From an uncultured Oscillospiraceae bacterium (GTDB lineage Bacteria > Bacillota > Clostridia > Oscillospirales > Oscillospiraceae): a stretch of 64,000 bases of DNA. Both the position numbers and the translations under genes were made by a program. Under the pieces are notes generated by a model that searched no databases, was not told the DNA's origin, and was given only the letters and a program-made list of their open reading frames with translations. Location of the stretch: contig CALWXF010000008.1 in the NCBI GenBank assembly GCA_944385445.1, positions 1 through 64,000 of the forward strand, read 5' to 3'. The stretch's first letter is position 1, and the number at the start of each line of letters is the position of its first letter. Of the stretch, positions 15,320-61,618 are shown one piece after another.

Positions 15320-15389
15320 GCGCCACACCCCTGGCCCTTCGGGAGAGGGCCTGACCTTCTGCCACATTTCAGGCGCATACCTGCGTCCT

Positions 15390-15923
15390 TGGCAGGGACG
15401 CTCCGCTGGGCCCGATTTCTCAGCGATGAGAAATCGGGGAAAGAATCGCCAAAGGCGGGGCCTTCCCCCGCCTTGTGGAATCCACCCCGCGGTACTGGGA
15501 GGGGTGTGCATCCTCCTCTTTCCGGCCCTTGGCTTGGTGGGGTCACATAGACGGCATGGTAATTCTTTTGCAAGTACCAGCTTCTACGGGAAATACCACT
15601 TCTACCTCCAGGGCCTTCCCCTGGTATGCAACTGTTCCCAGTTGCCGGGGGGCTGGCTCCCGTCGGCGGGAACGCCGCTTGACCAAGGTAGGCCCGGAGG
15701 TGGAAACCGCCACGCCATAGGGCCAGCTGCCCAAGGGGGCCTGGTGTGGTGGCACAAACAGGGGCCACAGCTAGGGTGACGGGCCGAACATAGCCTTGAC
15801 GCAGTTCCAGCCTGGTACCCCAGGGGGGTACTTAGGGGGGAACGCCCTAAGCGGGTTTTGGTTCCTTTTGCCCGAACAAAAGGAACCCCCAGCGGGCAGC
15901 GTCCCCGCCAGGCTGGCAAGCCG
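15390..15923. mobile_element. Large inverted-terminus intergenic element, copy B
   Basis: About 534 bp, co-linear with copy A: the 28-base hairpin CCCGATTTCTCAGCG..., a GC-rich hairpin ending CCCCCGCCTTGTGG, the motif GTCACATAGACGGC (15542-15555), and a 3' end with GGGGGGAACGCCCTAAGC, a hairpin and CAGGCTGGCAAGCC. The left end is of the second type (CTTGGCAGGGACGCTCCGC) and the right end of the first type. It fills most of the gene-free stretch between the phosphoesterase and mnmG. No protein-coding gene is supported inside. Confidence 0.75.
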
Positions 15924-28410: not shown

Positions 28411-28463
28411 GCCTCCCTTGTGTAAAGGGAGGTGGCCCGGCGTAAGCCGGGTCGGAGGGATTG
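28411..28463 (+). repeat. REP-like unit (+), left flank of element C
   Basis: Full unit with CCTCCC/GGGAGG hairpin, CCCGGC..GCCGGG hairpin and the GTCGGAGGGATTG tail. The inverted partner lies at 29054-29221, on the other side of element C. Confidence 0.85.
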
Positions 28464-29035
28464 ACCTTCTCCGATTTCTCAGGCGCACCCTTGCGCCCCT
28501 GGCAGGGACGCTCCGCTGGGCCCGATTTCTCCCCGATGAGAAATCGGGGAAAGAATCGCCAAAGGCGGGGCCTTCCCCCGCCTTGTGGAATCCACCCCGC
28601 GGTACGGGGAGCCCCTGCGTCCTCCTTTTTGCGGCCCTTGGCCTGGTGGGGTCACATAGATGGCATGGCAGTTCTTTTGTAAGTGCCAGCTTTTACGGCA
28701 AGTAAAACTTCTACTTCCAGGGCCTTACCCTGGTGAGCCGCTGTTCTCAGCTAACGAAAGACTGGCTCCCGGCGGCGGGAACGCCGCTTGGCCAGGGTAG
28801 GCCCGGCTGTGGAAACCACCTGGCGATAGGGCCAGCTGCCCAAGGTGGCCTGGTGTGGTGGCACAAACAGGAGCCACAGCAAGGGTGACGGGCCGAATCT
28901 AGGCTTGACGCATGGACAGCCTCGTACCCCAGGGAGGTCCTTAGGGGGGAACGCCCTAAGCGGGTTTTGGTTCCTTTTGACCGGGCAAAAGGAACCCCCA
29001 GCGGGAAGCGTCCCCACCAGGCTGGCAAGCCTGAA
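28464..29035. mobile_element. Large inverted-terminus intergenic element, copy C
   Basis: About 572 bp, same order as copies A and B, with GTCACATAGATGGC at 28651-28664, hairpins at both ends and the right end CACCAGGCTGGCAAGCC. The left end belongs to the second type (CTTCTCCGATTTCTCAGG). A matching right end of that second type occurs further out at 29236-29300, beyond the REP-like unit, so two nested or overlapping elements are likely. The stretch 28293-29501 holds this repeat material and terminators but no gene. Confidence 0.72.
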
Positions 29036-34899: not shown

Positions 34900-35021
34900 G
34901 CCTCCCTTGTGTAAAGGAAGGTGGCCCGGCGCTAGCCGGGTCGGAGGGATTGTCGGCGGCTGGGTAACGTCAACCCCTCAGTCAGCCTCGCGGCTGACAG
35001 CTCCCCTTACACAGGGGAGCC
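34900..35021. repeat. Inverted pair of REP-like units (+ then -)
   Basis: Plus unit 34900-34952 and minus unit 34971-35021 with 18 nt between them, the tails (GGGATTG and CAACCCC) facing each other. It lies between two ABC transporter gene pairs. Confidence 0.85.
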
Positions 35022-37502: not shown

Positions 37503-38499
37503 CGTCTAACCACCCAAGGTTCAGGCTTGCCAGCCTGGCGGGGACGCTCCCCGCTGGGGGTTTCTTTTGAGCGGGCAAAAGAAACCAAAACCCGCTTAGG
37601 GCGTTCCCCCCTAAGTACCCCCTTGGGGTACGAGGCTGGGCCTGCGTCAAGCCTAAATTCGGCCCGGTACCCTTGCTGTGGCTCCTGTCACTGCCACCAC
37701 ACCAGGCCACCCTGGTCAGCTGGCCCTATGGCTGGACGGTTTCCATGTCCGGGCCTACCCTGGAGCAGCGGCGTTCCCGCCGCCGGAGGCTTTTGCCGCA
37801 CTTCCTGTGTTGCTGTGGTAGGGGCCGTGGCTTGCCCGGCCCGTGGCTGCCCTGGCCTTGCTCTGGGGGATTCGGGAGGGGCAAGCACTCAGCAACCCAA
37901 GAAATGCGGCAATGTTCCGGGTCACTTCCGGCCAAAGGCTCCCCTGTGTAAGGGGAGCTGTCTGCCTGTGGGGCAGACTGAGGGGTTGACGTTACCCAGG
38001 TGGCAGACAATCCCTCCGACTCGTCGGTGCGGACTGTGTATCCCTCGCCTTGCCCCTGAGAGACGGGGCAAGTCTCGCTCACGCCGTTGCACCTCCTCTC
38101 CCCACCAAACCCGCTTGCGCTGGGCTTTGGCGGGGGCCCCATCATGCCATGCCACCTCCCTTTACACAAGGGAGGCTTTGCGTCTGGCAGTCACTGGAAG
38201 CCAATCCCCCGCCCGCTGGAAACAGCGGCTACCAGGGTAAGGCCCTGGGGGTAGAAGCACACATGGCCAGAGAAGCAGGCATGACCTGTAGAATTTCTAA
38301 TCTATCTAAGTGACCCCACCAGTCCAAGGGCCGAACATAGGAGGACGCAGGGGCACCCAGTACTGCGGGGTGGATTCCACAAGGCGGGGGAAGGCCCCGC
38401 CTTTGGTGGGTCTTTGGTGACTTTCTGCCCAGTCAGAAAGTCACCCCAGCGGAGCGTCCCCGGCGGGGGCGCTGGTTTCTGCCTGAGAAATCGGAGGAG
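37503..38499. mobile_element. Large inverted-terminus element, copy D (inverted, split)
   Basis: The same element in the opposite orientation. It starts with a first-type end (GTCTAACCACCCAAGG at 37503) and finishes with a second-type end (GCCTGAGAAATCGGAGG near 38490). The GTCACATAGA motif appears as the diverged reverse form TCTATCTAAGTGACC near 38301-38315. Between about 37790 and 38190 the element is interrupted by about 400 bp that include an inverted pair of REP-like units. The whole gene-free stretch 37429-38590 consists of this composite. Confidence 0.68.
37937..38176. repeat. Inverted pair of REP-like units inside element D
   Basis: Plus unit 37937-37988 (GGCTCCCC...GAGGGGTTG) and minus unit 38008-38176 (CAATCCCTCCGAC...GGGAGGC), the latter carrying the about 115-nt insert also seen at 29054 and 41421. 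The spacer is 19 nt. Their position inside copy D shows nesting. Confidence 0.8.
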
Positions 38500-41349: not shown

Positions 41350-41587
41350 GCCTCCCTTGTGTAAAGGGAGGTGGCATGGCGTAGCCATGACGGAGGGATT
41401 GTCCGTTACCTGATAGCTGTCAACCCCTCAGTCTCGTCGGTGCAGACTGTGTATCTCTCGCCTCGCCCCTGAGAGGCGGGGCCAGTCTCGCTCACGCCGT
41501 CGCACCTCCTCTCCCCACCAAACCCGCTTGCGCTGGGCTTTGGCGGGGGCCCCATAATGCAGACAGCTCCCCTTACACAGGGGAGCC
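41350..41587. repeat. Inverted pair of REP-like units, one with insert
   Basis: Plus unit 41350-41401 and minus unit 41421-41587 with a 19-nt spacer. The minus unit carries the about 115-nt insert (GCCTCGCCCCTGAGAGGCGG, CTTGCGCTGGGCTTTGGCGG). This fills the gap between pepF and the C39-like peptidase gene; no gene is seen in it. Confidence 0.85.
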
Positions 41588-43452: not shown

Positions 43453-44379
43453 CTAGTTGACATGCCTGTTGAGCACCACGCCGCTGTATGCTCCCAGGCC
43501 TGCGTCATAGTATACCCCCACGGAATACCAGTCTCCTGTGGTGGGATAGGCCTGGGTGAGCACCACCACCACCTGCCGCTGGGTGGTCACCAGCTGGATG
43601 TGATAGTCCAGGCTTTGGGCCGTTTGAGAGAGGGCGTTGAGCCGCTGTTGGGTGCTCTGCTCCGTCCCGTCCTGAGCGGCAGCGATGTCCGCCATGGGGG
43701 CATACACGATTTGCGCCACATCCAGGCCGTGGCCCTCCCAGGTGACAAAGTGGTTGTTGTCTACCTGATAGATGTCCAGATGTTCCCACAGCATCAGGAG
43801 GGTGTCGTAGAGTTCTCCCTGGCCTCCCTGGGGGTCAAACAAATCGCACACGTCCTGCTGTACCTGGTTTAAAGCCTCCTCTTTCTGGGCCCGGGTGGGA
43901 GGCTCTCCCGTGGAGCGGGCCACGATGGACAGCCCAAAATCCTGGGTGCTGTAGCCGCCCCCCACATCCAACAGCGCAGGCTGGCTGCTTTGTTGGTCAG
44001 TGACTGGGATGTCTTTCCAGTAGAACGTGTCGGAGCTCACCAGGGGCTCCCGGGTGTTCCAGTCTTCTGGCAGGGTCACCCTCAGCAGGTCGGCGCCGTG
44101 GAGCAGGCTGGCTATACACCGGTCCATGAAATATTCGTGGAGTTCCGGCGCATTGGCGGCCAGGTACTCCGGGTCGTATTGGTTCCAGGGATAGAACACC
44201 ACCTCGTCCACGCTCTGACTGACAAAGGAGGGCGGGGTGGGGGTGTCCACCTCCACCGTCTGGTCCGCCTGAGGGACCACCACCAGCCGGGCGGCCATCC
44301 CCACGGCGATGCCTCCGGCCAGCAATATGAGGGCGGTGAGCAGGGCAAACAGCCAGGGACGGCGGTTAGGCGTTTTCAT
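43453..44379 (-). CDS. Membrane-anchored protein of unknown function, paralog 2
   Basis: 308 residues from the ATG at 44379 (AGGAGG nine bases upstream; an ATG two codons earlier is only 3 bases from it). One transmembrane segment (LFALLTALILLAGGIAVGMAARL), a short Pro/Thr linker and the same extracytoplasmic domain as the downstream gene. It overlaps the sensor kinase gene by 14 bases, so it is translated together with it. Such overlap often marks a protein working with the sensor; the function is unknown. Confidence 0.85.
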   Translation of the reverse strand: MKTPNRRPWLFALLTALILLAGGIAVGMAARLVVVPQADQTVEVDTPTPPSFVSQSVDEVVFYPWNQYDPEYLAANAPELHEYFMDRCIASLLHGADLLRVTLPEDWNTREPLVSSDTFYWKDIPVTDQQSSQPALLDVGGGYSTQDFGLSIVARSTGEPPTRAQKEEALNQVQQDVCDLFDPQGGQGELYDTLLMLWEHLDIYQVDNNHFVTWEGHGLDVAQIVYAPMADIAAAQDGTEQSTQQRLNALSQTAQSLDYHIQLVTTQRQVVVVLTQAYPTTGDWYSVGVYYDAGLGAYSGVVLNRHVN

Positions 44380-45814
44380 GGCCATCCACCTCCTGACACA
44401 GCGGGAAGGTGAGGGTCACCTGGGTGCCCTCTCCCTCCTGGCTCCAGAATTCCATGGTGCCCTGGTGGGCCACCACAATGGCCTGACACAGGGCCAGACC
44501 CAGGCCGGCGCCCCCCGCCTTGCGGCTGCGGCTCTTGTCCACCATGTAGAAGGGCTGGCAGATCTTCTCCAGCTCTTCGGGGGGGATGCCCTGGCCCCAG
44601 TCCCGAATCTTCAAAACGGCCTTTTCTCCCTCCGCCTGGGCGGAGAAGGACAGCCGTCCCCCGGTGGGGCTGGCCTTTCGGGCGTTGTCCAACAGGTTGT
44701 ACAGCAGGGACTTGAACAGCTCCCGGTCCATGGCGATGGACAGAGGCGGGCACGAACAGGTGAGGGTCAGCTCCGCCTGGGCCAGCAGGGGCTCCAGACT
44801 CACCGCCACCTCGCCCACCACCTGGTCCAGGGGGGTGGGCTCGAAGGCGAGGTTGACGCTGCCCACGGTGAGAAGCTCCAGCAGCTTGGCCGATAGGGAG
44901 CGCAGCCGCTTGGCCTCCTCCAAAATAATGCCGGAATACTCCACCCGCTGGGGGTCTGATACCGTCTTGGGCAGATACAGCAGGTCGGCATAGCCCATAA
45001 TGGAGGTCAGAGGGGTCTTCATCTCGTGGGCCAGGTTGCCCACGAACACCCGCCGCTCCTCGGCCACCTGCTCCAGCTGCTCCACCCGCTCCTGCACCGC
45101 CTGGGCCAGGGCGTTCATGTCCTGGGCCAGGTCGGCCAGCTCGTCCTGGCTGCGGATGTCCAGCCGCTGGTCGTAGTTGCCCCCGGCGATGGAGCGGGCA
45201 TTTTCCCGCAGAGCCCCCAGGGGTTTGAGCAGCCGCCGCACTAACAGCAGCAGCAGCACGGCGGCCAACAGACTGATGCCCAGGCTTAAGCCTACCGCCC
45301 GCAGGGCCTGGAGGTTTAAGTCCCGCTGGAGGTCGCCCACCGAGTAGGCGGCCACCAGGCGGTATGCCCCCGACTCCAGGGTCAGGGGCATGGAACACAC
45401 CAGGTACCACTCTCCGGCGGTCTCACCCCCCTGAAGCTGGCACTGGGTGAGGCTGTCATCTTCGGCGGTGGGGGGGACCACCCCGGCGGGCAGCTGACTC
45501 CACAGGGCCTTCTCCTCCTGGTCCAGCAGCATCAGCCCCGCCAGATAGTCGTCGGTGGCCTGTTGCTCCAGGGTCTGGATGGCGGTCTGGCGGGTCTGCT
45601 CCTCCTGGAGCAGCACCACACCCAGCCGCAGCCGCTGGTTGAGGATGCCCGCCTTCAAAATGCCCGCCATGTACTGCTGTTGGGTGATGGCCCGCTGTTG
45701 TTCCCGCTGCCACAGGGCGTCCCGGGTGGAGCGCAGCAGCAGCACCGAAGACAGGGCGGTGATGGACACCATGAGGGTCAGAGTGGAGAGAAAAATCTTC
45801 TGCCACAGCTTCAT
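44366..45814 (-). CDS. Sensor histidine kinase
   Basis: 482-residue membrane kinase. TM1 about 7-28, an extracellular sensor domain of about 140 residues, TM2 about 170-192, HAMP (about 193-245), HisKA with His263 in NLAHEMKTPLTSIMGYADLL, then the ATPase N (NLLDNARKASPTG), G1 (KIRDWGQGIPPEE), F and G2 (GGAGLGLALC) boxes. It would phosphorylate the response regulator that overlaps its start by 4 bases. The signal is unknown; the neighbours suggest the cell envelope. Confidence 0.95.
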   Translation of the reverse strand: MKLWQKIFLSTLTLMVSITALSSVLLLRSTRDALWQREQQRAITQQQYMAGILKAGILNQRLRLGVVLLQEEQTRQTAIQTLEQQATDDYLAGLMLLDQEEKALWSQLPAGVVPPTAEDDSLTQCQLQGGETAGEWYLVCSMPLTLESGAYRLVAAYSVGDLQRDLNLQALRAVGLSLGISLLAAVLLLLLVRRLLKPLGALRENARSIAGGNYDQRLDIRSQDELADLAQDMNALAQAVQERVEQLEQVAEERRVFVGNLAHEMKTPLTSIMGYADLLYLPKTVSDPQRVEYSGIILEEAKRLRSLSAKLLELLTVGSVNLAFEPTPLDQVVGEVAVSLEPLLAQAELTLTCSCPPLSIAMDRELFKSLLYNLLDNARKASPTGGRLSFSAQAEGEKAVLKIRDWGQGIPPEELEKICQPFYMVDKSRSRKAGGAGLGLALCQAIVVAHQGTMEFWSQEGEGTQVTLTFPLCQEVDGHENA

Positions 45815-46470
45815 AGCAGCTTCTCCAGGCGGTACCCGATGCGGGGCAGAGTCACCAGGCGCTGGGACAGGTCCAGCTTCTGGCGCAGCCGCTGGACGTG
45901 GATGTCCACGGTGCGGCTCTCTCCCTGGTACTCATAGCCCCACACCATGGAGAGAAGCCGCTCCCGGCTCAGGGCCAGGTCCTGGTGCTGGAGGAACACC
46001 CGCAGCAGCTCAAACTCCTTGGGAGCCAGGGGCACCAGCTCCCCATCCAGGGTGACGGTGTGGCTGTCCAGGTTCTGGACAATGGGGCCGTAGGTGAGCA
46101 CCCGCACCCCGCCGCCCCGGCGGCGCAGCACCACCTCCACCCGGGCCAGCAGCTCCAGGGTCTCAAAGGGCTTGGTGATATAGTCCTCCGCCCCCAGGCG
46201 CAGGCCCCGCACTTTGTCCCCCACCTGCTGCACGGCGGTGAGGAAGATCACCGGGACCCCCACCCCCCGCAGGTGCTCCATGACGGCAAAGCCGTCCATA
46301 CCGGGGAGCATCACGTCCAGCAGCACCAGGTCGAACACCCCAGGCTGCACCAGTTCCACCGCCTTGGACCCGTCCATGCAGCTCTGACAGGTGTAGCCCG
46401 CCATCTCCAGGGTGGCGGCAATCATGCGGGCAATGTTTTCTTCGTCCTCCACAATGAGTATGTGTGCCAT
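45811..46470 (-). CDS. OmpR/PhoB-family response regulator
   Basis: 219-residue two-domain regulator. Receiver domain with acidic pair Glu8-Asp9, phosphorylated Asp52 (LLDVMLPGMDGF) and Lys in YITKPFE, then a winged helix (LAPKEFELLRVFLQHQDLALSRERLLSMVWGYEYQGESRTVDIHVQRLRQKL). It is the first gene of the operon: regulator, kinase, two paralogous membrane proteins. A direct-repeat site at 46542-46563 lies 72 bases upstream of the start codon, suggesting autoregulation. Confidence 0.95.
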   Translation of the reverse strand: MAHILIVEDEENIARMIAATLEMAGYTCQSCMDGSKAVELVQPGVFDLVLLDVMLPGMDGFAVMEHLRGVGVPVIFLTAVQQVGDKVRGLRLGAEDYITKPFETLELLARVEVVLRRRGGGVRVLTYGPIVQNLDSHTVTLDGELVPLAPKEFELLRVFLQHQDLALSRERLLSMVWGYEYQGESRTVDIHVQRLRQKLDLSQRLVTLPRIGYRLEKLL

Positions 46471-46602: not shown

Positions 46603-48042
46603 TCAGTGGAAGTATTCCTCCAGCACTTCCCACTCCGAGAAGGGCAGGCGCAGCCCGCAGGTCTCAATATACCCCTCGTGGCCCTTGCCCAGCAGGGCCA
46701 CCATGTCCCCAGGCAGGGCCAGGTCCAGGGCCCGGAAAATGGCCTCTCTCCGGTCGTAGATCACCTCCCAGGGGATTTGACGGCCCAGGGCCTGGGTGAT
46801 GGAGCGGCAGATGTCCTCCACCGGCTCCCACCGGGGGTTGTCGGTGGTGACAATGGCACAGTCCGCCAGTTCCGCCGCCACCTGGGCCATGTCCAGCCGC
46901 CGCATGGGGGGACGGTTGCCCCCGGCCCCGAACACCACGATGAGTTTCCCGTGGGGATAGCAGTGCAGGCAGCTCAAAATGGCCCGGAAGCTGGCGGCGT
47001 TGTGGGCGTAGTCCACCACCACCCGAATCCCCCGGTCATTGGGGAATACCTGGGCTCGACCGGGCACGGCGGCCCCCTCCAGTCCCTGGCGGATGGCCTC
47101 CTCCGGCAGCCCCAGCTGACGGCACACCGCCACTGCTGCCAGGGCGTCCTGGACGTGGTGCCGCCCGGGGAGGGGGATGGTATAGGGGGTGTCACAGCCC
47201 GCCACCGTGAAGCGGCTGCCCAGGGCGGTGGAGGACTCTATGGGGGCCACCGTGACCCCTTGCAGGTCACAGGCGGGGGAGAAGCCGAAGGTGGCCACCG
47301 GGGCCTCTGGGGGCAGCTGGGCGGCCATCTGGGGCCAGGCCATGTCCTCCCCATTGCCCACCGCTCCGGCGCACTGGGCGAAGAATGCGGCCTTGCAGGC
47401 GGCGTATTCCTGGTAGTCCTTGTGTTCCCCCGGGCCGATGTGGTCGGGGGAGAGGTTGAGGAAGACCCCGGCGGCGAAGGTGAGCCCCGCCACCCGGCGG
47501 TGCTTCATGGCCTGGGAGGACACCTCCATCACCACATGGGTGCACCCCTGTTTCACCATATCATGGAGCAGGTGGTGGAGGAGGAGTGGGTCCGGGGTGG
47601 TGTTGGGGCAGTCGGCCCACTTGTCCCGGCCTATGTATGCCCCCATGGTGCCGATCATCCCTGCGGTGTGCCCGGCGGAGAGCAAAATGTCCCGCACCAT
47701 ATGGGCGGTGGTGGTTTTGCCCTTGGTGCCGGTGATGCCGATGAGGGTCAGGCTCTTGGCGGGGTGGCCGTAGAAGGCGGCGGACAGGTGGGCCAGGGCG
47801 TCCCGGGGGTCCTCCACCACAAAGAGAGGGACGGGACAGGGCAGGGACACCGGGGAGACCACGGCGGCGGCCCCCCGGTCCACAGCCTGGGAGATGTACT
47901 GGGTGCCGTCGGCGTGCTGGCCCGGAATGGCCACAAAGAGGGCGCCGGGGGTGACGGTGCGGGAGTCGCAGGAGAGGGAGGAAATGTCCACATCCTGGTC
48001 ACAGGAGTGGCCGAGCACGGCCAGCAAAGGGGCTAGTTTCAT
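46603..48042 (-). CDS. murE: UDP-MurNAc-tripeptide synthetase, meso-DAP type
   Basis: 479-residue Mur ligase that adds the third residue to UDP-MurNAc-L-Ala-D-Glu in the cytoplasm. P-loop GITGTKGKTTT (about 106-116), VMEVSSQAMKHRRV (carbamylated-Lys region), DYAHN, then the DAP signature DNPR at residues 401-404 and GKGHE at 452-456. Both signatures are known to mark meso-diaminopimelate-adding enzymes. The next gene upstream on the same strand is a second MurE-like ligase without either signature. Confidence 0.93.
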   Translation of the reverse strand: MKLAPLLAVLGHSCDQDVDISSLSCDSRTVTPGALFVAIPGQHADGTQYISQAVDRGAAAVVSPVSLPCPVPLFVVEDPRDALAHLSAAFYGHPAKSLTLIGITGTKGKTTTAHMVRDILLSAGHTAGMIGTMGAYIGRDKWADCPNTTPDPLLLHHLLHDMVKQGCTHVVMEVSSQAMKHRRVAGLTFAAGVFLNLSPDHIGPGEHKDYQEYAACKAAFFAQCAGAVGNGEDMAWPQMAAQLPPEAPVATFGFSPACDLQGVTVAPIESSTALGSRFTVAGCDTPYTIPLPGRHHVQDALAAVAVCRQLGLPEEAIRQGLEGAAVPGRAQVFPNDRGIRVVVDYAHNAASFRAILSCLHCYPHGKLIVVFGAGGNRPPMRRLDMAQVAAELADCAIVTTDNPRWEPVEDICRSITQALGRQIPWEVIYDRREAIFRALDLALPGDMVALLGKGHEGYIETCGLRLPFSEWEVLEEYFH

Positions 48043-48114: not shown

Positions 48115-48153
48115 AGAAGGGGAGTTGTCTGCCGATAGGCAGACTGAGGGGGT
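48115..48153 (+). repeat. Degenerate REP-like unit (+) beside element E
   Basis: Contains AAGGGGAG, the hairpin GTCTGCC..GGCAGAC and GAGGGGG, matching the second half of the REP-like unit; the left part is lost. It directly precedes element E. Confidence 0.55.
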
Positions 48154-48159
48154 GTACTT

Positions 48160-48711
48160 CTCCAATTTCTCAGGCGCACTTCAGCGCCCCAGCCGGGGAC
48201 GCTCCGCTGGGGTCCATTTTGACTGGCCAAAATGGACGAAAAGCCACAAAAGGGGCCCGCCCCTTTTGAAACCCCAATGATTTTATTTTGTTTTGTGCGG
48301 TGGGGCCGTAGTCGGCCCTGGACCTGGAGAGGTCACATAGATGGCGTATAGCCTCTCTGGGATATACCTACTCCGCTGATAGATTCCGTTTCTCTTGCCA
48401 GGGCCTCAAGTTTGGCGGTGTGCGGCCGATTCCCGGCCGCCGTGGGCCGGGGGGACCAGAAAGGGCCGAAACCTGGAGAAACGTGCACTATCCCGGCAGT
48501 AATAGAGAAAATCAGAGCTTTTTACTCCCTTGGTATGGTACTTGCTTTTCGGCCCGGCCTGAGAACCACCGCAGGGCCAGCCTCGTATCCCAGGGAGGTC
48601 CTTAGGGGGGAACGCCCTAAGCGATTCTTTCCCCGATTTCTCATCGGGGAGAAATCGGGCCCAGCGGAGCGTCCCCGGCTGGGGCGCTGGTCTGCGCCTG
48701 AGAAATTGGAG
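48160..48711. mobile_element. Large inverted-terminus intergenic element, copy E
   Basis: 552 bp with the clearest second-type termini: about 50 bp starting CTCCAATTTCTCAGGCGCA and ending at CGCTGGG are repeated inverted at the right end with few mismatches. GTCACATAGATGGC is at 48332-48345. The interior differs from copies A-C over most of its length but keeps GGTCCTTAGGGGGGAACGCC and the GAGAAATCGGG hairpin near the right end. It fills the gap between murE and the murE-argB fusion; no gene is supported inside. Confidence 0.75.
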
Positions 48712-48753
48712 AAGAGCAATCCCCCAGCCTGCCCTGCGGGTAGTGGAAGCAAC

Positions 48754-48790
48754 AAAAAACCGGAGAAGCAGAAGATTTCTGCCTCTCCGG
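48754..48790 (-). terminator. Intrinsic terminator of the murE-argB fusion gene
   Basis: Minus strand: CCGGAGAGGCAGAA (48790-48777) pairs with TTCTGCTTCTCCGG (48773-48760), followed by TTTTTT. A shorter T run follows on the plus strand as well. Confidence 0.85.
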
Positions 48791-48809
48791 TCGGTTTTTT
48801 GTTTGGTTT

Positions 48810-51179
48810 TCAAGGAGTGAGAATGGTGCCGGACACCCGCTGGTGCAGCACATCCAGCAGCAGCACATGCTCACAGTGTCCGTCCAGGATGGACACCTCG
48901 CCCACGCCGCTCTCCAGGGCGTGGAGGCAGCCCTGGACCTTGGGCACCATGCCCCCGGCGATGAGGCCGGCGTCCATGAGCTCCTTCGCCCGCTGGGCAT
49001 CCATGTGGGCCACGGCGGTCTTGGTGTTGTGGCTGTCAATGAGAATGCCTCCCACATCGGTGAGGAACACCAGACGGTGGGCGTGGAGGGCCTCGGCGAT
49101 GGCCTGGGCGGCGTCATCGGCGTTGCAGTTGTACCCAGCCCCGTCGCCGCCGGCAATGGGGGAGACCACAGGGAGGAAGCCGGCGCCCAGCAGGGTTTCC
49201 AGCAGGCGGGTGTCCACCTGGGTGATCTGACCCACCCGGCCCAGAGCGGGGTTCTTGCACTGGGCGGTAATGAGGTGACCGTCCTTGCCGGACACACCCA
49301 CCGCCGCCACATCCAAGTCGTTCAGGGCGGAGACAATGGACTTGTTTACCTGAGCGGACAGGGCCATCTCCGCCACCCCCAGAGCGGCCTCATCGGTGAC
49401 CCGGTAGCCGTTTTCAAAGTGGGTGGGCACCTGCAGCCGCTCCAGCAGGGCGGTGATGTTCTTGCCGCCGCCGTGGACCAGCACCACCCGCAGGCCCGCC
49501 ATTTGCAGGGTGGCCACGTCCTGGAGGATGGAGTCCACCGCCCCGTCAGGGCCCAGGGCGGAGCCGCCGTATTTTACCACCACGGTCTGGCCTGCCATCT
49601 CCTTGAGGGCTGGGAGGACGGAGGAGATGGAGCGCACCTTCTCCAGCCCGTCCAGGCCGTGGATGACATCATATTCTTGCAGGAAGGTCTTGGAGTAGTC
49701 CACATCCGAGGGGGTGTCGATGTACTCCAGGCCCCGCTTCTGCCGGGTCTCTGCCCCCTTGCCGGTGATGAGAATCACCGTAGGCTTGTCGCAGCCCAGA
49801 ATGGCCTGGCGGATGGCCTCGCCACGGTTGGGCTGGATCTCATAGGCGCAGCCCTGCTGGGCCACATGGGCGGCGATCTCCTTGCAGATGGACACGGTGT
49901 CCTCCTCGCCGGAGTCCTCCTCGGTGAGCACCACCAGGTCGGAGTACTTGCCGGACACCTCGCCCAGGTCTCTCCGGCGGTCCAGGGCCTTTTTGCCGGG
50001 ACAGCCGAACACGGTGACAATGCGCCGCCCAGGGTACTCCTCCAGCACGGACTTGAACAGGGTCTCAAAGCTCATGCGGTTGTGGGCGTAGTCCACAATG
50101 GCGGTGATGTGGTCGTTGGCGTTGGTGTACACCTCCATGCGCCCGGGCACCCGGGCCTTCATGAGACCCACATAGATGCACTGCTGGGGGATGCCCAGGG
50201 CGTGGCACACGGCGATGGCGGCCAGGGCGTTCTCGGTGTTGAAGAGGCCGGGCATGGTCAGCTGGAACTCCCGGGACTGGCCCCCGGCGATGGTGACCCG
50301 GAAGATGATGTCGTTGCCCCGCTTGCGGATGTGGGAGCCGTACACGTCGGCCTTGGGATTGGTGCGGGAGAAGGTGACCACCCGGCGGCAGTCCCGGCGG
50401 GCGGCCTCTTCCACCCGGTCAGCGTGATCACAGTCCAGGTTGACACAGGACACCTCCGCCTGGGCGAAGATTTTCAGCTTGGACTGAAAGTAGTCCTCAA
50501 AGTCGGGGTGCTCAATGGGGGAGATGTGGTCGGTGCCGATGTTCAAGAAGCAGGCGGCGGCAAACCGGGTGCCCAGGGTGCGGTGGTACTTCAGAGCCTG
50601 GGAGGACACCTCCATGGTCAGATAGCCCAGCCCGGAGCAGAGTGCGTTGGCGAAGTGCTTTTGCAGCTCCAGGGGCTCGGGGGTGGTGAGGTGGGACTCG
50701 AACTCCTCCACGCCGTCGTAGGTGTCAATGGAGGAGATGACCCCGCAGCGCACCTTGCGGCTGGACAGATACTCGTCCAGGATATACTTGAGGTAATAGG
50801 TGGTGGAGGACTTGCCCTTGGTGCCGGTGATGCCGATGACGTTGAGCAGACGGGAGGGATCATTGTAGTACTGCACCGCAAAGGGGGCGATGACCTGGCG
50901 CATGTCGGTGACGTGGATGCAGGGCAGGTCCACCTCCGGATAGGGGGTCTCGCTGACGTAGGCGAAGGCGCCCCGATTGGCGGCCTGCTGCAGGTACTCG
51001 GGGCGGAAGTGGGCGCCCTTACAGAGGAAAAGGGTGCCGGGGACGACGTTTTTGGAGTCGTAGGACACCAGCTCCACGGTGCGGGAAAGGTCCAGCCCGG
51101 CGGGCAGGGGGGCGGCCAGGAGGTTTTTGGTGGTGAGGAGATGACAGTAGTCCTCCAGGCGGTACATGGTCAAATTCAT
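48810..51179 (-). CDS. Fusion: MurE-like ligase + N-acetylglutamate kinase (ArgB)
   Basis: 789 residues, two full enzymes in one frame. Residues 1 to about 500 are a Mur ligase: P-loop GITGTKGKSS (116-125), MEVSSQALKYHRT, DYAHNRMSFE. The loop that reads DNPR in DAP-adding MurE is EEDSGEED (420-427), and GKGHE is replaced by GKGAE (473-477), closer to the GKGAD of lysine-type enzymes. Residues about 528-789 are ArgB: VVKYGGSALG (Lys536), LVHGGGKNIT, ENGYRVTDEAA, NCNADDAAQAIAEAL and GGMVPKVQGC, all catalytic motifs kept. ArgB phosphorylates N-acetylglutamate toward ornithine and arginine. I infer a non-DAP third residue, perhaps ornithine or lysine. ATG 51179 is preferred over GTG 51188 because GAGGTG precedes it. 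Confidence 0.9.
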   Translation of the reverse strand: MNLTMYRLEDYCHLLTTKNLLAAPLPAGLDLSRTVELVSYDSKNVVPGTLFLCKGAHFRPEYLQQAANRGAFAYVSETPYPEVDLPCIHVTDMRQVIAPFAVQYYNDPSRLLNVIGITGTKGKSSTTYYLKYILDEYLSSRKVRCGVISSIDTYDGVEEFESHLTTPEPLELQKHFANALCSGLGYLTMEVSSQALKYHRTLGTRFAAACFLNIGTDHISPIEHPDFEDYFQSKLKIFAQAEVSCVNLDCDHADRVEEAARRDCRRVVTFSRTNPKADVYGSHIRKRGNDIIFRVTIAGGQSREFQLTMPGLFNTENALAAIAVCHALGIPQQCIYVGLMKARVPGRMEVYTNANDHITAIVDYAHNRMSFETLFKSVLEEYPGRRIVTVFGCPGKKALDRRRDLGEVSGKYSDLVVLTEEDSGEEDTVSICKEIAAHVAQQGCAYEIQPNRGEAIRQAILGCDKPTVILITGKGAETRQKRGLEYIDTPSDVDYSKTFLQEYDVIHGLDGLEKVRSISSVLPALKEMAGQTVVVKYGGSALGPDGAVDSILQDVATLQMAGLRVVLVHGGGKNITALLERLQVPTHFENGYRVTDEAALGVAEMALSAQVNKSIVSALNDLDVAAVGVSGKDGHLITAQCKNPALGRVGQITQVDTRLLETLLGAGFLPVVSPIAGGDGAGYNCNADDAAQAIAEALHAHRLVFLTDVGGILIDSHNTKTAVAHMDAQRAKELMDAGLIAGGMVPKVQGCLHALESGVGEVSILDGHCEHVLLLDVLHQRVSGTILTP

Positions 51180-51233
51180 GGTAGACACCTCGATTTAGAG
51201 TTGAAATGTGCAGGTACCAAGGAAGCGAGATGA

Positions 51234-51362
51234 CAATCCCTCAGTCTGCCCTACGGGCAGCCAGCCCCCTTTACACAAGGGGGCCAAAGGGCAGCGCCAG
51301 TGGAAAGCCTCCCTTGTGCAAAGGGAGGTGGCACGGCCGCTGAGGCCGTGACGGAGGGATTG
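51234..51362. repeat. Inverted pair of REP-like units (- then +)
   Basis: Minus unit 51234-51285 (CAATCCCTCAGTC...GGGGGCC) and plus unit 51307-51362 (GCCTCCC...GGAGGGATTG), spacer 21 nt. Between the fusion gene and the racemase gene. Confidence 0.85.
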
Positions 51363-51395
51363 ACGGTGCCCCGGGTTGTCGTCGCCTTTTTTCGC

Positions 51396-52100
51396 TCAGA
51401 TGGTACGCAGCTGGTAGCCGCAGCGGGTGACGGCGGTCTCTGCCAACACCTCCATGGCGTCCACGTAGAAGGGGGGCAGGTTGTGGTAGGTGCGGAACAC
51501 GGACAGCTCGGTGCAGGCCAGAATGGCGCAGTCACACCCGGCCTGGCGCATGGCCTTGTCGATGGCGGCAAACTTCTCCCGGCTGCCCCGCTCCCCCTGC
51601 TTGATCTCGTCGTAGATGATGGACATCACCAGGGCCTGGATGGCGGCATCCGGGGCCACGGCCTCCAGCCCATACTGGGCGCAGGCGGCCTGGTACAGCC
51701 CGGACTGGATGGTGCCGTCGGTGGCCAGGATGGCGGGACGGCGGCGGCCCTGGGCGTAGATGGCGGCGGCGGTCTCCCGAATCATGTGGAGAATGGGGGT
51801 GTGAATGTCCCCTTGCAGCTTGTCCACAAAGTAGTGGGAGGTGTTGCAGGGGATGGCGATGGCAGTGCAGCCGCAGTCCTCCAGCAGCTTGGCGTCCCGA
51901 AGGAGCCGCTCATACAGGGCCCCAGTGTCCCCGGAGAGGATGGCGGCGGTGCGGTCGGGCATTTTGGTGTCGGACAAGATGAGAGTGGGCAGGTGCTCCT
52001 GGTCACAGTTGGCCTCGGTGCGGTCCAGCACATATTGATAGAAGACCTGGGTGGCCTGGGGGCCCATGCCCCCCAAAATGCCCAGCTTTTGTTCAGTCAT
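51396..52100 (-). CDS. Aspartate/glutamate racemase family protein
   Basis: 234-residue cofactor-independent racemase, most like aspartate racemase (RacX/YgeA group): LGILGGMGPQAT at the N-terminus and the two catalytic cysteines in AIPCNTSHYF and ILACTELSVF. It would interconvert L- and D-aspartate. Start ATG 52100 has GGGAG upstream; the frame is open to 52178 inside the next gene. It begins 14 bases after the stop of a D-aspartate-ligase-like gene, the pairing known from bacteria with D-Asp cross-bridges. Confidence 0.88.
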   Translation of the reverse strand: MTEQKLGILGGMGPQATQVFYQYVLDRTEANCDQEHLPTLILSDTKMPDRTAAILSGDTGALYERLLRDAKLLEDCGCTAIAIPCNTSHYFVDKLQGDIHTPILHMIRETAAAIYAQGRRRPAILATDGTIQSGLYQAACAQYGLEAVAPDAAIQALVMSIIYDEIKQGERGSREKFAAIDKAMRQAGCDCAILACTELSVFRTYHNLPPFYVDAMEVLAETAVTRCGYQLRTI

Positions 52101-52114
52101 ATTCGGAATCTCCC

Positions 52115-53332
52115 TTAGTTCTGGGGCTTTTTGCAGTACTGGCGGAAGCGGTGGATATTGCCGATGTGGTTTTTCCACACCCGCAGCACCCGGCCCAGGG
52201 TGTAGTCGGGGCGGTACTCCATGGAGTGGTGGTCGGCCCCGGCCCGGATGAGGGCCTTCATCTGGGGGTGATAGTTCTTGGGGATGAACTCATAGGCCAG
52301 AACCCGGGGAATCATCCGCCACAAGCTCTGGTTTTTCACCACGGTGAGGGGCAGGTCCTTGCCCTCAATCAAATCCCCCACCAGGTAGGTGGCGATGTTG
52401 TGCCCGGACCCGGTGACGTAGTAGTTGGAACGGCCCTGGCGGCAGTTGATCTCAAAGGCCTTGTACTTGCCGTCCCGCTGGTCGTACTTGATGTCGAAGT
52501 TGGAGAAGCCCACATACCCCAGGTCCTCCAGCATCCCCCGAATCTTGTCGCACAGCTCCTGCTGGTGCTCGGTGATGATGACGGCGTGGTTGCCGATGCC
52601 GTGGGGGGAGTGCTCCTCCAGGAGCACATGGCCCAGGCACATGAGCTTGACCTTGCCGTGCTGGTCGGAGTAGTTGGTCAAAACCCGCATGTAGGTGTCG
52701 TCTCCGGGAATGAACTCCTGGAGAATCATTTTGCCCGGGTATCCGGCGGCGTACACCTCGTCCAGGGCGGCCAGGAGCTCCTCCCAGGTGTCGCACAGGT
52801 ACACCTTTTTCAGCTCCCGGTGGCCGGTGGCCCAGTAGGCCACGCCGTCGGCGGGCTTGGCGATGTAGGGGGCGCCGAAGGGGGGCTTGAAATCGTGGCC
52901 CATCTCCTGGTCGTAGACAAAGGTGGTGGGGTGGTCGATGCCGTAGCGGTCACACAGGGCGTAGAACTGCTCTTTGTCGGTGAGCTGGTCCAGCATCTCC
53001 CCGGAGATGTAGTTGCAGCGGACGTTTTCGGGGAACTTGTCTTTCAGGTGGGCGGCCAGCTTCACATAGCTGTCGCCGCAGCCGATGACCAGCACCGTCT
53101 TGGGGTACACCTCCCGGGCCACGTCGGTGACGTTTTTCAAAAAGGCGTCGGCGTCTTCATTCTCCAGGCAGGGGCGGTAGTCGATGATGGAGCTGAAGGC
53201 GCAGGGGAAGGTGGCGGCGAACTTGCCGAAGGCAATGCTCTTCACCCCGTAGGCCTCGTGGAAGGCCCGGGCCACGCTGTATACGTTGATATCCCCGCCG
53301 AAGAGCAGGGGCTGGAAGGAATGGGTTTCCAT
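52115..53332 (-). CDS. ATP-grasp ligase, D-aspartate ligase-like
   Basis: 405-residue ATP-grasp carboxylate-amine ligase. The start FQPLLFGGDINVYSVARAFHEAYGVKS and ATP-grasp parts (APYIAKPADGVAYW, ILQEFIPGDDTYMRV, FSNFDIKYD, FEINCRQGRSNYY) resemble D-aspartate ligases such as the Asl enzyme of Enterococcus faecium. That enzyme attaches D-Asp to the side-chain amine of the third stem residue. The adjoining racemase would supply D-Asp. Substrate is inferred from family and neighbours; related ATP-grasp ligases with other substrates exist. AAAGGAG lies 11 bases before the ATG. Confidence 0.82.
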   Translation of the reverse strand: METHSFQPLLFGGDINVYSVARAFHEAYGVKSIAFGKFAATFPCAFSSIIDYRPCLENEDADAFLKNVTDVAREVYPKTVLVIGCGDSYVKLAAHLKDKFPENVRCNYISGEMLDQLTDKEQFYALCDRYGIDHPTTFVYDQEMGHDFKPPFGAPYIAKPADGVAYWATGHRELKKVYLCDTWEELLAALDEVYAAGYPGKMILQEFIPGDDTYMRVLTNYSDQHGKVKLMCLGHVLLEEHSPHGIGNHAVIITEHQQELCDKIRGMLEDLGYVGFSNFDIKYDQRDGKYKAFEINCRQGRSNYYVTGSGHNIATYLVGDLIEGKDLPLTVVKNQSLWRMIPRVLAYEFIPKNYHPQMKALIRAGADHHSMEYRPDYTLGRVLRVWKNHIGNIHRFRQYCKKPQN

Positions 53333-53372: not shown

Positions 53373-53494
53373 CAATCCCCCAGTCTGCCTTGCGGCAGAC
53401 AGCCCCCTTTACACAAGGGGGCCTGACTGCGCCGCACCCCAAGCCTCCCTTGTGCAAAGGGAGGTATCACAGCGAAGCTGTGACGGAGGGATTG
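53373..53494. repeat. Inverted pair of REP-like units (- then +)
   Basis: Minus unit 53373-53423 and plus unit 53443-53494, spacer 19 nt, between relA/spoT and the ATP-grasp gene. The plus unit has ATCACAGC..GCTGTGAC as its second hairpin: the stem is preserved while its sequence differs from the other units. Confidence 0.85.
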
Positions 53495-53508
53495 ACGGGA
53501 AAAGGGTA

Positions 53509-55752
53509 TTATCCGTTGGCTCTCTGCACCAGGAACACGCCCTGAATCTGGGACAGCTTATTGATGACCCCGGTGAGCTCGCTGCGGTCCTTCACCGACA
53601 GCTCCAGGAAGATGGTGGCGTAGCCGTCAGGCTGGGAGCGGGCGGAGAGGTTGTTCACCTTCACCTTTTGGGTGGACAGGGCCATAGCCACGTCCAGGGC
53701 CAGGCCGTCCCGGTCCTTGGCGGAGATCTCCAGGGAGGTGCGGTAGTTGATCTGATCGCCCTCCACCCAGGACACGGCCACCCAGCGGCCAGCCTCCTCC
53801 GGCTTGCGGCGCAGGGGGTCGGCATTGGGGCAGTCCTTGCGGTGGATGGACACGCCATAGCCCCGGGTGATGAAGCCCACCACCGGGTCTCCGGGGACGG
53901 GGGTGCAGCACTTGGAGAACTTGACGGTGCAGTTGTCCAGCCCCTCCACCAGAATGCCGTTGGAGGAGTGGCGGGGCTTCTGACCTGTGGGGGTGGACAC
54001 CTTGGCAGCGGCGGGGAAGATGGTCTCCCCCTTGTTGAGAGAGGCCTGGAGCACCTTCTGCTCCGCCTTGAGCTGGTCGTCCCGGATGATGCGCTGCAGC
54101 TCCTCCTTGATGCGGGCCACCGCCTTCTGGGCGGACATGCCGCCGTAGCCGATGGCGGCGTACACCTCGTCCAGAGAGCCGTAGCGCAGCCGCCGCAGCA
54201 GGGCGTCGGTGATCTCAGGGGTGGCGGTGATGGAGGCCATGGTCAGGCCCATGTGCTTCAGTTCGGTCTCAAAGGCGGCTCGCCCGGTGGCGATGTTCTC
54301 CTCCCGGCGCTCCTTTTTAAACCACTGGCGGATTTTGTTTCTCGCCTCGTTGGACTTACAGATTTTCATCCAGTCCCGGCTGGGGCCCCGGGCGGCCTTG
54401 GAGGTGATGATCTCCACAATGTCCCCGTTTTTCAGGGGGGTGTCATAGGTGACGATGCGCCCGTTGACCCGGGCTCCCGTCATGGTGTTGCCCACGGCGG
54501 AGTGGATGGAGTAGGCAAAGTCGATGGGGGTGGCTCCGGCGGGCAGGCTCTTCACGTCCCCGTTGGGGGTGAACACGAACACCTCGTCAGCGAACATGTC
54601 CACCTTCAAGGTGCTGACAAATTCCTCGGCGTCGGTGTCCTGCTGGCTCTCCAGCAGCTTGCGCACCCACTCAAACTCCTTCTCGCTGCCCAGCTTGTCG
54701 TTGGCCAGCCCCTGCTTATACTTCCAGTGGGCGGCCACGCCGTACTCAGCGGTCTGGTGCATCTCCCAGGTGCGGATCTGCACCTCGAAGGGGATGCCGT
54801 CCCGGCCGATGACGGTGGTGTGCAGGGACTGATAGCCGTTGGGCTTGGGGGTGCCGATGTAGTCTTTGAACCGGCCCAGCACCGGGTTATACATGTCGTG
54901 AATGGAGCCCAGCACATTATAGCAGCTGGGAATGTCGGGGACAATGACACGGAAGGCATATAAATCAAAAATTTCCTTGAAATTTTTGTTCTGTGTGTAC
55001 ATCTTCCGGTACAGGGAGTAGATGTGCTTGACCCGGCCGTATACCTTGCACTGGATGCCGTCGGCGGCCAGGCGCTGCTCCAGCTGCTGCTGGATGTTGG
55101 AGAAGAACTGGGCGTTGCGGGTGGTGATGCTCTCCAGCTCCTGCTCCACCTCCTCATAGCCGATGGGGTCCAGGTAGCGCAGGGAGATGTCCTCCAGCTC
55201 CCACTTGATGCGCTGCATACCTAAGCGGTGGGCGATGGGGGCGTAGATCTCCATGGTCTCCAGGGCCTTCTCCCGCTGCTTCTTCTCCGACTGGTACTGG
55301 AGGGTGCGCATGTTGTGCAGGCGGTCGCACAGCTTGATGAGGATGACCCGCACGTCCCGGGCCATGGCCATGAACATCTTGCGCAGGTTCTCCATCTGCT
55401 CCTCTTCCTTGGAGGTGTAATGCATCCGGGTCAGCTTGGTGACCCCCTCCACCAGGTCCGCCACCGTGGAGCCAAAGAGTTTGGCGATGTCGTCGTGGGA
55501 GGCGTCGGTGTCCTCAATGCAGTCGTGGAGCAGGGCGGCGATGATGGAGTCCAGGTCCAGGCCCAGCTCATTGACAATCTCCGCCACCGCCAGGGGGTGG
55601 GTGATGTAGGGCTCTCCGCTCTTGCGCAGCTGGGTGCCGTGGTGGGCGTTGGCGTAGTCAAAGGCAGTGCGCAGCCGCTTCACATCGGCGTTGGGGTTGC
55701 GCTGAAGCACCTGTTGCTCCAGAGCCTGGTAGCGTGTTTCGATGGATTCCAT
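53509..55752 (-). CDS. Bifunctional (p)ppGpp synthetase/hydrolase
   Basis: 747-residue RelA/SpoT homolog (Rsh) controlling the stringent response. An HD hydrolase domain (about 25-190; AALLHDCIEDTD intact, so hydrolysis is expected), synthetase domain (about 230-350; DYIGTPKPNGYQSLHTTV), TGS domain (VFTPNGDVKSLPAGATPIDFAYSIHS), then the helical and zinc-finger region (KCCTPVPGDPVVGFIT) and a C-terminal ACT domain. Start ATG 55752 is preferred because GAGGAGG is 7 bases upstream; the ATG two codons earlier touches the Shine-Dalgarno sequence. Confidence 0.96.
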   Translation of the reverse strand: MESIETRYQALEQQVLQRNPNADVKRLRTAFDYANAHHGTQLRKSGEPYITHPLAVAEIVNELGLDLDSIIAALLHDCIEDTDASHDDIAKLFGSTVADLVEGVTKLTRMHYTSKEEEQMENLRKMFMAMARDVRVILIKLCDRLHNMRTLQYQSEKKQREKALETMEIYAPIAHRLGMQRIKWELEDISLRYLDPIGYEEVEQELESITTRNAQFFSNIQQQLEQRLAADGIQCKVYGRVKHIYSLYRKMYTQNKNFKEIFDLYAFRVIVPDIPSCYNVLGSIHDMYNPVLGRFKDYIGTPKPNGYQSLHTTVIGRDGIPFEVQIRTWEMHQTAEYGVAAHWKYKQGLANDKLGSEKEFEWVRKLLESQQDTDAEEFVSTLKVDMFADEVFVFTPNGDVKSLPAGATPIDFAYSIHSAVGNTMTGARVNGRIVTYDTPLKNGDIVEIITSKAARGPSRDWMKICKSNEARNKIRQWFKKERREENIATGRAAFETELKHMGLTMASITATPEITDALLRRLRYGSLDEVYAAIGYGGMSAQKAVARIKEELQRIIRDDQLKAEQKVLQASLNKGETIFPAAAKVSTPTGQKPRHSSNGILVEGLDNCTVKFSKCCTPVPGDPVVGFITRGYGVSIHRKDCPNADPLRRKPEEAGRWVAVSWVEGDQINYRTSLEISAKDRDGLALDVAMALSTQKVKVNNLSARSQPDGYATIFLELSVKDRSELTGVINKLSQIQGVFLVQRANG

Positions 55753-55891
55753 GGTCATACCTCCTCGGGCGTCCGGGCAACGGACACGGGTGTGGACGGG
55801 GGCCACACAAAACTCTCTCTTCTAGTCTGGTCCAATCTGGTCCAGGGTCATACCCCATCCTGGCACAGGAGTGGGGGCAAATGGTATGGGG

Positions 55892-61496: not shown

Positions 61497-61618
61497 GCCT
61501 CCCTTGTGTAAAGGGAGGTGGCCCGGCGCAAGCCGGGTCGGAGGGATTGTCTGCTGCGTGGTGGGAGTCAACCCCTCAGTCAGCCCTATGGGCTGCCAGC
61601 TCCCCTTACACAGGGGAC
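61497..61618. repeat. Inverted pair of REP-like units (+ then -)
   Basis: Plus unit 61497-61549 and minus unit 61569-61618 with a 19-nt spacer, tails facing each other, between proA and the convergent lipoprotein gene. Confidence 0.85.

Follow-up and report, generated by a model that had tools for sequence, protein, structure and literature searches.

A MurE-type ligase fused to an N-acetylglutamate kinase in a conserved wall-type gene cassette of an uncultured Oscillospiraceae bacterium

According to our analysis, the gene at positions 48810 to 51179 on the minus strand of a 64,000-nucleotide stretch of contig CALWXF010000008.1 (assembly GCA_944385445.1, an uncultured Oscillospiraceae bacterium; this whole stretch is referred to as the window) joins in one frame a MurE-like ligase, which is likely not of the diaminopimelate (DAP)-adding type, to a full N-acetylglutamate kinase (NAGK, the product of argB). 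The fusion stands in a wall-type cassette and is real, old, and conserved. It is a variant of already known parts, namely MurE, NAGK, and the AslA-RacD cassette, and among the open-licence PMC papers listed by our literature search no title or abstract dealt with the fusion or with the cassette. We propose, at a probability of roughly 0.45 for the proposal as a whole, that the fused kinase would be a second, arginine-desensitised NAGK which, together with the ligase, a neighbouring racemase, and an ATP-grasp protein, would serve an A4-type (Lys/Orn-D-Asp) wall-precursor pathway. The gene and its two halves are as follows.

48810..51179, minus strand: MurE-like ligase/ArgB fusion gene, 789 amino acids, ATG start at 51179, the same Met starting the homologues
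49674..51179, minus strand: half with the Mur ligase (roughly residues 1-502 of the 789), likely a non-DAP-type MurE, with EEDSGEED / GKGAE, the invariant TGTKGKS, and Lys237 (792-residue numbering)
48810..49643, minus strand: ArgB half, with an N-helix-like leader, KYGGSAL, HGGGK, NGYRVT, NCNADDAA, and GGMVPK

An earlier note on this DNA had described a 789-residue MurE/ArgB frame with no mention of its strand; it runs on the minus strand, open from end to end and with no interruption. GAGGTG stands 5' of the ATG at 51179, while an alternative longer frame (48810-51188), equally free of interruption, begins at a GTG and has three residues extra. The Pfam domains of the protein are Mur_ligase_M, Mur_ligase_C, and AA_kinase, and both halves pass the corresponding NCBIfam models, the ligase half with 299.9 bits for the murE model TIGR01085 (cut-off, 257.3) and the kinase half with 228 bits for the argB model TIGR00761 (cut-off, 151.3). 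The earlier note had allowed for an assembly error at the junction. Since fused homologues are conserved across many genomes, those of relatives and of other families included, neither such an error nor chance explains the junction, and we rejected an assembly artefact.

The search of other genomes for this domain order, which the earlier note had proposed, found the fusion in 19 of 149 relatives, the window's own genome counted, and in 7 further genomes (G numbers denote genomes and L numbers loci). Twelve of the 19 fall in the genus and 7 in the family's other genera; the other 18 homologues are 59-98% identical to the window's protein, the match in G029 being cut by the contig start. Among 391 genomes drawn from the class, 30 gave a match at E <= 1e-90 and 9 of these are fused, 2 of them already counted, so that the seven new fused genomes come from two other families, with identities of 52-54%. 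Three more named loci, L117 (cut by a contig end), L124, and L126, are fused as well, and may overlap with the G-numbered genomes. The same ligase without the kinase occurs in 28 further genus members among the matches listed, which contain no such ligase for the genus members G002 and G025. In nine unfused genomes (G008, G013, G014, G017, G021, G027, G032, G037, and G038) the frame stops after the ligase and the fetched DNA holds no kinase-like stretch; the in-frame stops reported in the unfused matches of G013, G017, G021, G032, and G038 are just the ends of ligase-only frames.

The fused kinases appear to share one origin. Twenty-one fused kinase domains form a single clade, with support 100/100, apart from 30 separate ArgBs, which are the best-scoring part of the separate argB hits; this tree has some rows with long branches, leaves out L117 and L123, and lacks L121, which was not found at the search threshold. 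On a ligase-half tree of 45 rows, the nearest clade taken from the 117-row tree described below, the fused/unfused state requires five changes when the decayed L121 and L123 are scored as fused, and the simplest reading would be one old fusion followed by repeated loss of the kinase. At L121:5992-7944 and L123:2016-4166, the ArgB end of the ligase frame has shrunk and decayed so far that AA_kinase no longer matches it, and these frames are apparent intermediates in the loss of the fusion partner. Purifying selection acts on both halves, the ratio of nonsynonymous to synonymous substitution rates (dN/dS) in seven comparisons being 0.06-0.39 for the ligase and 0.04-0.45 for the kinase.

As the earlier note had reported, the ligase half is without DNPR and GKGHE, the motifs of DAP-adding MurE, and has EEDSGEED (420-427) and GKGAE (473-477) in their place, positions that match in the 789-residue numbering. 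Its TGTxGK ATP-binding loop (T121-S127) and K237, which we take to be the carbamylated-Lys position, are invariant in 10 fusions, and these conserved residues make an inactive ligase half unlikely. In a 117-row tree built by a quick method, from which low-scoring rows, duplicates, eight streptococcal loci, and most DAP MurEs of the genus were left out, the ligase half falls into a 104-row clade (support of 100 in the Shimodaira-Hasegawa-like approximate likelihood ratio test) together with streptococcal, enterococcal, Bifidobacterium, Collinsella, Atopobium, and Arcanobacterium enzymes. This clade, whose organisms we presume to have Lys- or Orn-type walls, lacks the Arg of DNPR, and the DAP-motif MurEs, that is, the window's own and lachnospiral ones (DNPR, one DNSR), stay outside it. 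Within the clade, the fusion belongs to an 81-row subgroup (support 99) with rows from Collinsella, Atopobium, Gleimia, Arcanobacterium, and C. aminobutyricum, outside which the lactic and Bifidobacterium rows fall. The row label L149_F in the 117-row tree is a length artefact of a frame that extends upstream, and L149 is not a fusion.

Motif and tree thus uphold the first part of what the earlier note had inferred, a ligase likely of non-DAP type. Its second part, L-ornithine as the residue added, did not stand in the same way, because unfused orthologues live in genomes without argB and argJ and because the motifs fail to separate the two candidate substrates: when we tried to tell Lys from Orn type by motif, the enzymes we take to be Lys-type and Orn-type overlapped. 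The L-lysine/L-ornithine-adding MurEs (S. aureus 4c12 and the streptococcal, enterococcal, Bifidobacterium, and Collinsella enzymes) are of the same family and the same clade as the fusion ligase, which like them is without the Arg of DNPR and has acidic residues at the third-residue motif. Unlike them, it carries a C-terminal ArgB and coexists with a DAP MurE; moreover, the lactic enzymes have DDPx / GKGAD where it has EEDSGEED / GKGAE, and its identity to named Bacilli and Bifidobacterium enzymes is 32-39%. In the excerpted text of PMC3829189, the S. aureus MurE is described as carrying DNPA and as binding the amine of lysine through Asp-406 and Glu-460. The L-lysine-adding MurE model NF010628 gives the ligase 323.6 bits, below its equivalog cut-off of 536, and no ornithine-specific model was among the NCBIfam MurE models that appeared for it. 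A MurE-type ligase joined to a second enzyme is likewise seen in the MurE-MurF bifunctional fusion (NF008896; PDB 8f5d, "Multifunctional fusion protein"), where the partner is another Mur ligase, whereas here it is an amino-acid-biosynthesis kinase. Two Lachnospiraceae loci (L133:10046-11527 and L134:10122-11579) hold a divergent Mur-ligase-like frame (GDDGGR, TMGDPGDED, LGRGGD) 3' of a MurE-like ligase.

The kinase half looks catalytically intact, since every one of the 21 fused domains in our alignment, to which L117, L121, and L123 do not belong, has K[YL]GG, HGGG, GYR, N.NAD, and GGM.PK; the catalytic motifs are also kept in 4 of 4 fused kinases fetched from the other families. We take the two Lys, HGGG, the Arg in NG-Y/L-R, and N.N.D to be catalytic or N-acetylglutamate-binding. 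The claim that all ArgB catalytic motifs are kept, made in the earlier note, holds, yet two features differ, namely the residue after HGGG and the C-terminal arginine-site motif. All 21 fused kinases read HGGGK where the 30 separate ArgBs read HGGGP, and a further fixed difference is the Tyr that replaces Leu before the substrate Arg (NGYR). The C-terminal DGR..H...E...(S/T)..G.GT, also found in separate ArgBs, is together with the N-helix presumably a mark of arginine-inhibited hexameric NAGK. The N-helix-like segment is kept in the fused kinases, while in the arginine-site motif R771 is present in 4, E779 in 6, and G785 in none of the 21, each of them being present in at least 29 of the 30 separate ArgBs. 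The kinase may therefore be relieved of arginine feedback. With the NAGKs of T. maritima (2bty) and P. aeruginosa (2buf) and with 2rd5 it has in common a full-length amino-acid-kinase domain, an N-helix-like leader, and the catalytic motifs; unlike those, it has a Mur ligase partner, HGGGK, NGYR, an altered C-terminal arginine site, and a second genomic copy.

The earlier note had called for a check for a second argB. In the genome of the window such a gene stands apart from the fusion, flanked by argJ and argD within an argG-argH-argJ-argB-argD-argF cluster (argC was not part of the search), which makes the fused kinase a second ArgB. A separate argB is above cut-off in 24 of the 26 fusion genomes, the window's included, with G007 (76% complete) and G078 (93% complete) as exceptions, and we therefore rejected the fused ArgB as a replacement of the normal one. 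Among the 33 family genomes with the unfused ligase, for which members outside the genus were counted at >=48% identity, one argB is above cut-off in 24 and none in 9. On contigs C88 and C100 of G024 there are two separate argB hits besides the fusion, one in a 258-residue frame, which may reflect a strain mixture in the bin.

The genes around the fusion, all on the same strand, complete the cassette on its 5' side and include a second MurE on its 3' side.

51396..52178, minus strand: Asp/Glu racemase family gene (racD-like), both Cys motifs aligning with aspartate racemase 1jfl
52115..53332, minus strand: ATP-grasp ligase, AslA/D-Asp-ligase-like by context, sub-threshold domain hits only
53509..55806, minus strand: RelA/SpoT-like gene upstream (a name we presume from its sequence), its synteny shared across the genus and with four further genera of the family (G055, G063, G085, G088)
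48758..48792, minus strand: intrinsic-terminator-like hairpin directly 3' of the fusion gene, 16 pairs and a T tail, a consensus match only
46603..48042, minus strand: DAP-type MurE with DNPR and GKGHE, 399.9 bits for NF001126 (cut-off, 373)

The racemase reaches 212.7 bits for TIGR00035 (cut-off, 93.1), with PCNT and CTE aligned to 1jfl, and since it also just passes the cysteate racemase model NF052483 (196.1 against 190), its substrate may be Asp or cysteate. In the ATP-grasp protein, ATP-grasp_3 reaches 19.8 bits, below 23.2, so that its role is assigned by context. ATP-grasp, racemase, and ligase genes occur together in 29 of 40 loci fetched, and in 16 of 18 fused loci, the remaining two (L057 and L060) being cut by contig ends. 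In the other families, the gene order is the same in all four fused loci fetched, and all three genes are found in one of four unfused loci. Among 80 named loci, a related ATP-grasp gene adjoins a MurE-like gene in Vagococcus fessus (with a racemase), Atopococcus tabaci, and Bifidobacterium thermophilum. Clostridium aminobutyricum DSM 2634, Claveliimonas, and Sellimonas have the set in unfused form, and many of the 80 have no such neighbours within the stretch examined. Ten neighbour proteins in five relatives' loci gave nothing clear, one in G068 being alanine-racemase-like below cut-off.

According to the excerpted text of PMC4155827, L. lactis AslA is an ATP-grasp enzyme that adds D-Asp to lysine, and racD lies in its operon. 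The cassette shares with the aslA-racD operon of Lactococcus lactis, and with Aslfm of Enterococcus faecium, the pairing of an ATP-grasp ligase and an aspartate racemase; unlike that operon it includes its own MurE-type ligase and kinase, and its ATP-grasp protein is likened to AslA by context and not by sequence. The two neighbours appear to be an aspartate racemase and, judging by context, a D-Asp ligase of the AslA type, which gives the gene set the look of an A4-type wall cassette. In the mechanism we propose, the partner of the ligase half is a second NAGK, probably arginine-desensitised, which would catalyse an early step in making ornithine for the wall; the aspartate racemase would supply D-Asp, and the AslA-like ligase would put it onto the side-chain amine. 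The fusion, racemase, and ATP-grasp genes would thus make up an A4-type wall-precursor cassette beside a DAP-type MurE and single murC, murD, and murF.

Several observations weigh against this proposal. The ligase falls short of the cut-offs of all lysine and DAP equivalog models listed for MurE, and for the ATP-grasp protein there is neither a confident family hit nor a solved relative (E value, 0.1). Many relatives have no kinase half, and in L121 and L123 a decayed remnant is what is left of it. The ligase motifs of the fused and unfused genus members checked are the same save for single changes, so that no switch of substrate is visible. Six genus members (G008, G012, G013, G021, G027, and G037) carry the unfused ligase with the same motifs without argB and argJ, which indicates that the ligase does not need ArgB. 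Finally, we presume two Faecalibacterium species to be relatives. For these, the excerpted text of PMC8166934 gives meso-DAP, from thin-layer chromatography of whole-cell hydrolysates.

The lack of argB does not equal a lack of ornithine, an idea we dropped because ornithine carbamoyltransferase is above cut-off in eight of the nine ArgB-less ligase genomes (G008, G012, G013, G021, G027, G031, G037, and G055), while the ninth, G075, has only matches below cut-off. Ornithine could thus come from arginine in the six argB-less genus members. An association of the fusion with argJ, which is above cut-off in 17 of the family's 19 fusion genomes and in 21 of 28 unfused genus members (G031, at 241 bits, being below), was too weak for use. 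As substrate of the ligase, L-ornithine is plausible, at about even chances, and is favoured by the fusion itself, by the altered arginine site, and by G012, which has the unfused ligase and ornithine carbamoyltransferase and no lysA match. L-lysine is a somewhat less probable substrate, and the choice of ornithine over lysine is, with the timing of each wall type, the least certain part of the proposal.

Were lysine added, the wall would be A4-alpha (Lys-D-Asp), and the fused ArgB, active or once active, would be linked to it indirectly, through shared expression or ornithine for other uses. Such an account, the main rival although we consider it unlikely, draws on the lysine-type enzymes within the non-DAP clade (streptococci and enterococci, with a chemistry that we presume), yet these stand outside the fusion's 81-row subgroup. 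It also agrees with the unfused orthologues that keep the same motifs where argB and argJ are absent and dapF is present, and with S. aureus MurE, whose specificity for ornithine is 400-fold below that for lysine in the excerpted text of PMC3829189. It leaves unexplained why, in three families, an extra ArgB whose arginine site is altered has stayed joined to the ligase. G012, moreover, has the ligase and no lysA match, and lysA is above cut-off in just 1 of 16 genomes, the window's own reaching 256.8 bits against 297.9; this is a weak test, though, as most other genomes have a long lysA match below cut-off, maybe a diverged LysA.

A reading compatible with the proposed cassette, and in our view doubtful, is that two walls alternate in one life cycle, with the DAP MurE used for the cortex of the spore and the fusion cassette for the wall of vegetative cells. 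We presume such a cortex/vegetative split for Lysinibacillus (Bacillus) sphaericus; the one paper that our literature search listed on this precedent does not state it in its excerpted text. The separate murE with DNPR and GKGHE that the earlier note had placed 0.8 kb downstream is indeed there, across a gap of 767 bp which contains pieces of dispersed repeats, and because the terminator-like hairpin lies between, the fusion and murE are probably transcribed separately (terminator-like sites number 14 in the 12 kb scanned, against 7.6 expected). The window's own genome (91% complete) has seven Mur-ligase-domain genes, the other five being murF, murD, murC, and folC by NCBIfam and a MurT-like one by Pfam; as murC, murD, and murF are single, two third-residue ligases appear to feed one pathway. 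A MurE with DNPR/GKGHE is present in all 17 ligase-bearing genomes checked (25 genomes searched and 24 sequences compared, 17 from genomes with the second ligase). Both the genome of the window and 15 of the family's 19 fusion genomes have the sporulation gene spoIVA above cut-off, and 16 of the 19 have dapF. However, G024, G068, and G088 (91, 73, and 73% complete) have the fusion and keep the DNPR/GKGHE MurE without a spoIVA match, so that a strict tie of the DAP MurE to sporulation is not supported. In the Lachnospiraceae, Claveliimonas bilis (L129:5992-9180) and Sellimonas caecigallum (L130:5965-10254) have a non-DAP MurE and a DNPR/GKGHE MurE near ATP-grasp and racemase genes; the double MurE set is therefore not limited to Oscillospiraceae, and both genera, which we take to be non-sporing, speak against the split as well. 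Directly 3' of the DAP murE, at 44366-46470 on the minus strand, lies a two-component system for which all listed models, WalK and VanS included, stay below their cut-offs; that it takes part in wall regulation would be a guess.

A regulatory or scaffolding role of the ArgB half is improbable. In such a role, the half would bind N-acetylglutamate, ATP, or arginine, or would build the NAGK oligomer, and would in this way tie the second ligase to nitrogen or arginine status with no main part in ornithine supply. An ordinary ArgB elsewhere in 24 of 26 fusion genomes, the fixed substitutions in the fused kinases (HGGGK, NGYR), and a kinase half dispensable in several lineages would fit such a role, but catalytic motifs in 21 of 21 and, in other families, 4 of 4 fused kinases go beyond the needs of binding, and an arginine sensor is made less likely by the erosion of just the arginine-site motif. 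A soluble product containing D-Asp and a diamino acid instead of a wall precursor is very improbable: the racemase does pass the cysteate model and the wall is already served by the DAP MurE, but the ligase has retained a MurE architecture and clusters with the MurEs of wall synthesis, and a related ATP-grasp gene stands beside a MurE-like gene in Vagococcus fessus and Atopococcus tabaci.

Elsewhere in the window, and also between the cassette genes, there are dispersed intergenic repeats with GCCTCCCTTGTG.AAAGG.AGG-like ends (546-602, 28411-28467, 34900-34956, 37937-37993, 41350-41406, 51307-51363, 53443-53499, 61497-61553, and others), with longer copies of 157-300 nt at 587-1048, 15345-15806, and 28455-28915 and in pieces at 48146-48726; they look like small mobile or repetitive extragenic palindromic (REP)-like elements. 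Tandem repeats of 12 bp at 11093-11355 and 27303-27505 would code for Pro-Glu/Thr-rich linkers (EPTPEP-like), perhaps of surface proteins. At 1394-1446, the Rfam family SpF59_sRNA (RF02440), a streptococcal small RNA family, is matched with 74.1 bits (gathering score, 37.2) in what is apparently an oscillospiral genome.

Taken further than the cassette proposal, and quite unlikely in this full form, spore-forming, DAP-capable Clostridia would make two peptidoglycans, the L-Orn-D-Asp wall of the cassette and another, for instance that of the cortex, by the DAP ligase, while the feedback-free kinase-ligase fusion would set how much carbon of the arginine pathway enters the wall. If the proposed cassette is what it seems, gut Oscillospiraceae that annotation calls DAP-type would have an ornithine- or lysine-type, D-Asp-bridged peptidoglycan, which would change the host receptors that see these bacteria (NOD1 versus NOD2) and the endolysins that cut them, and the fusion would tie arginine/ornithine biosynthesis directly to wall synthesis within one protein, which is rare.

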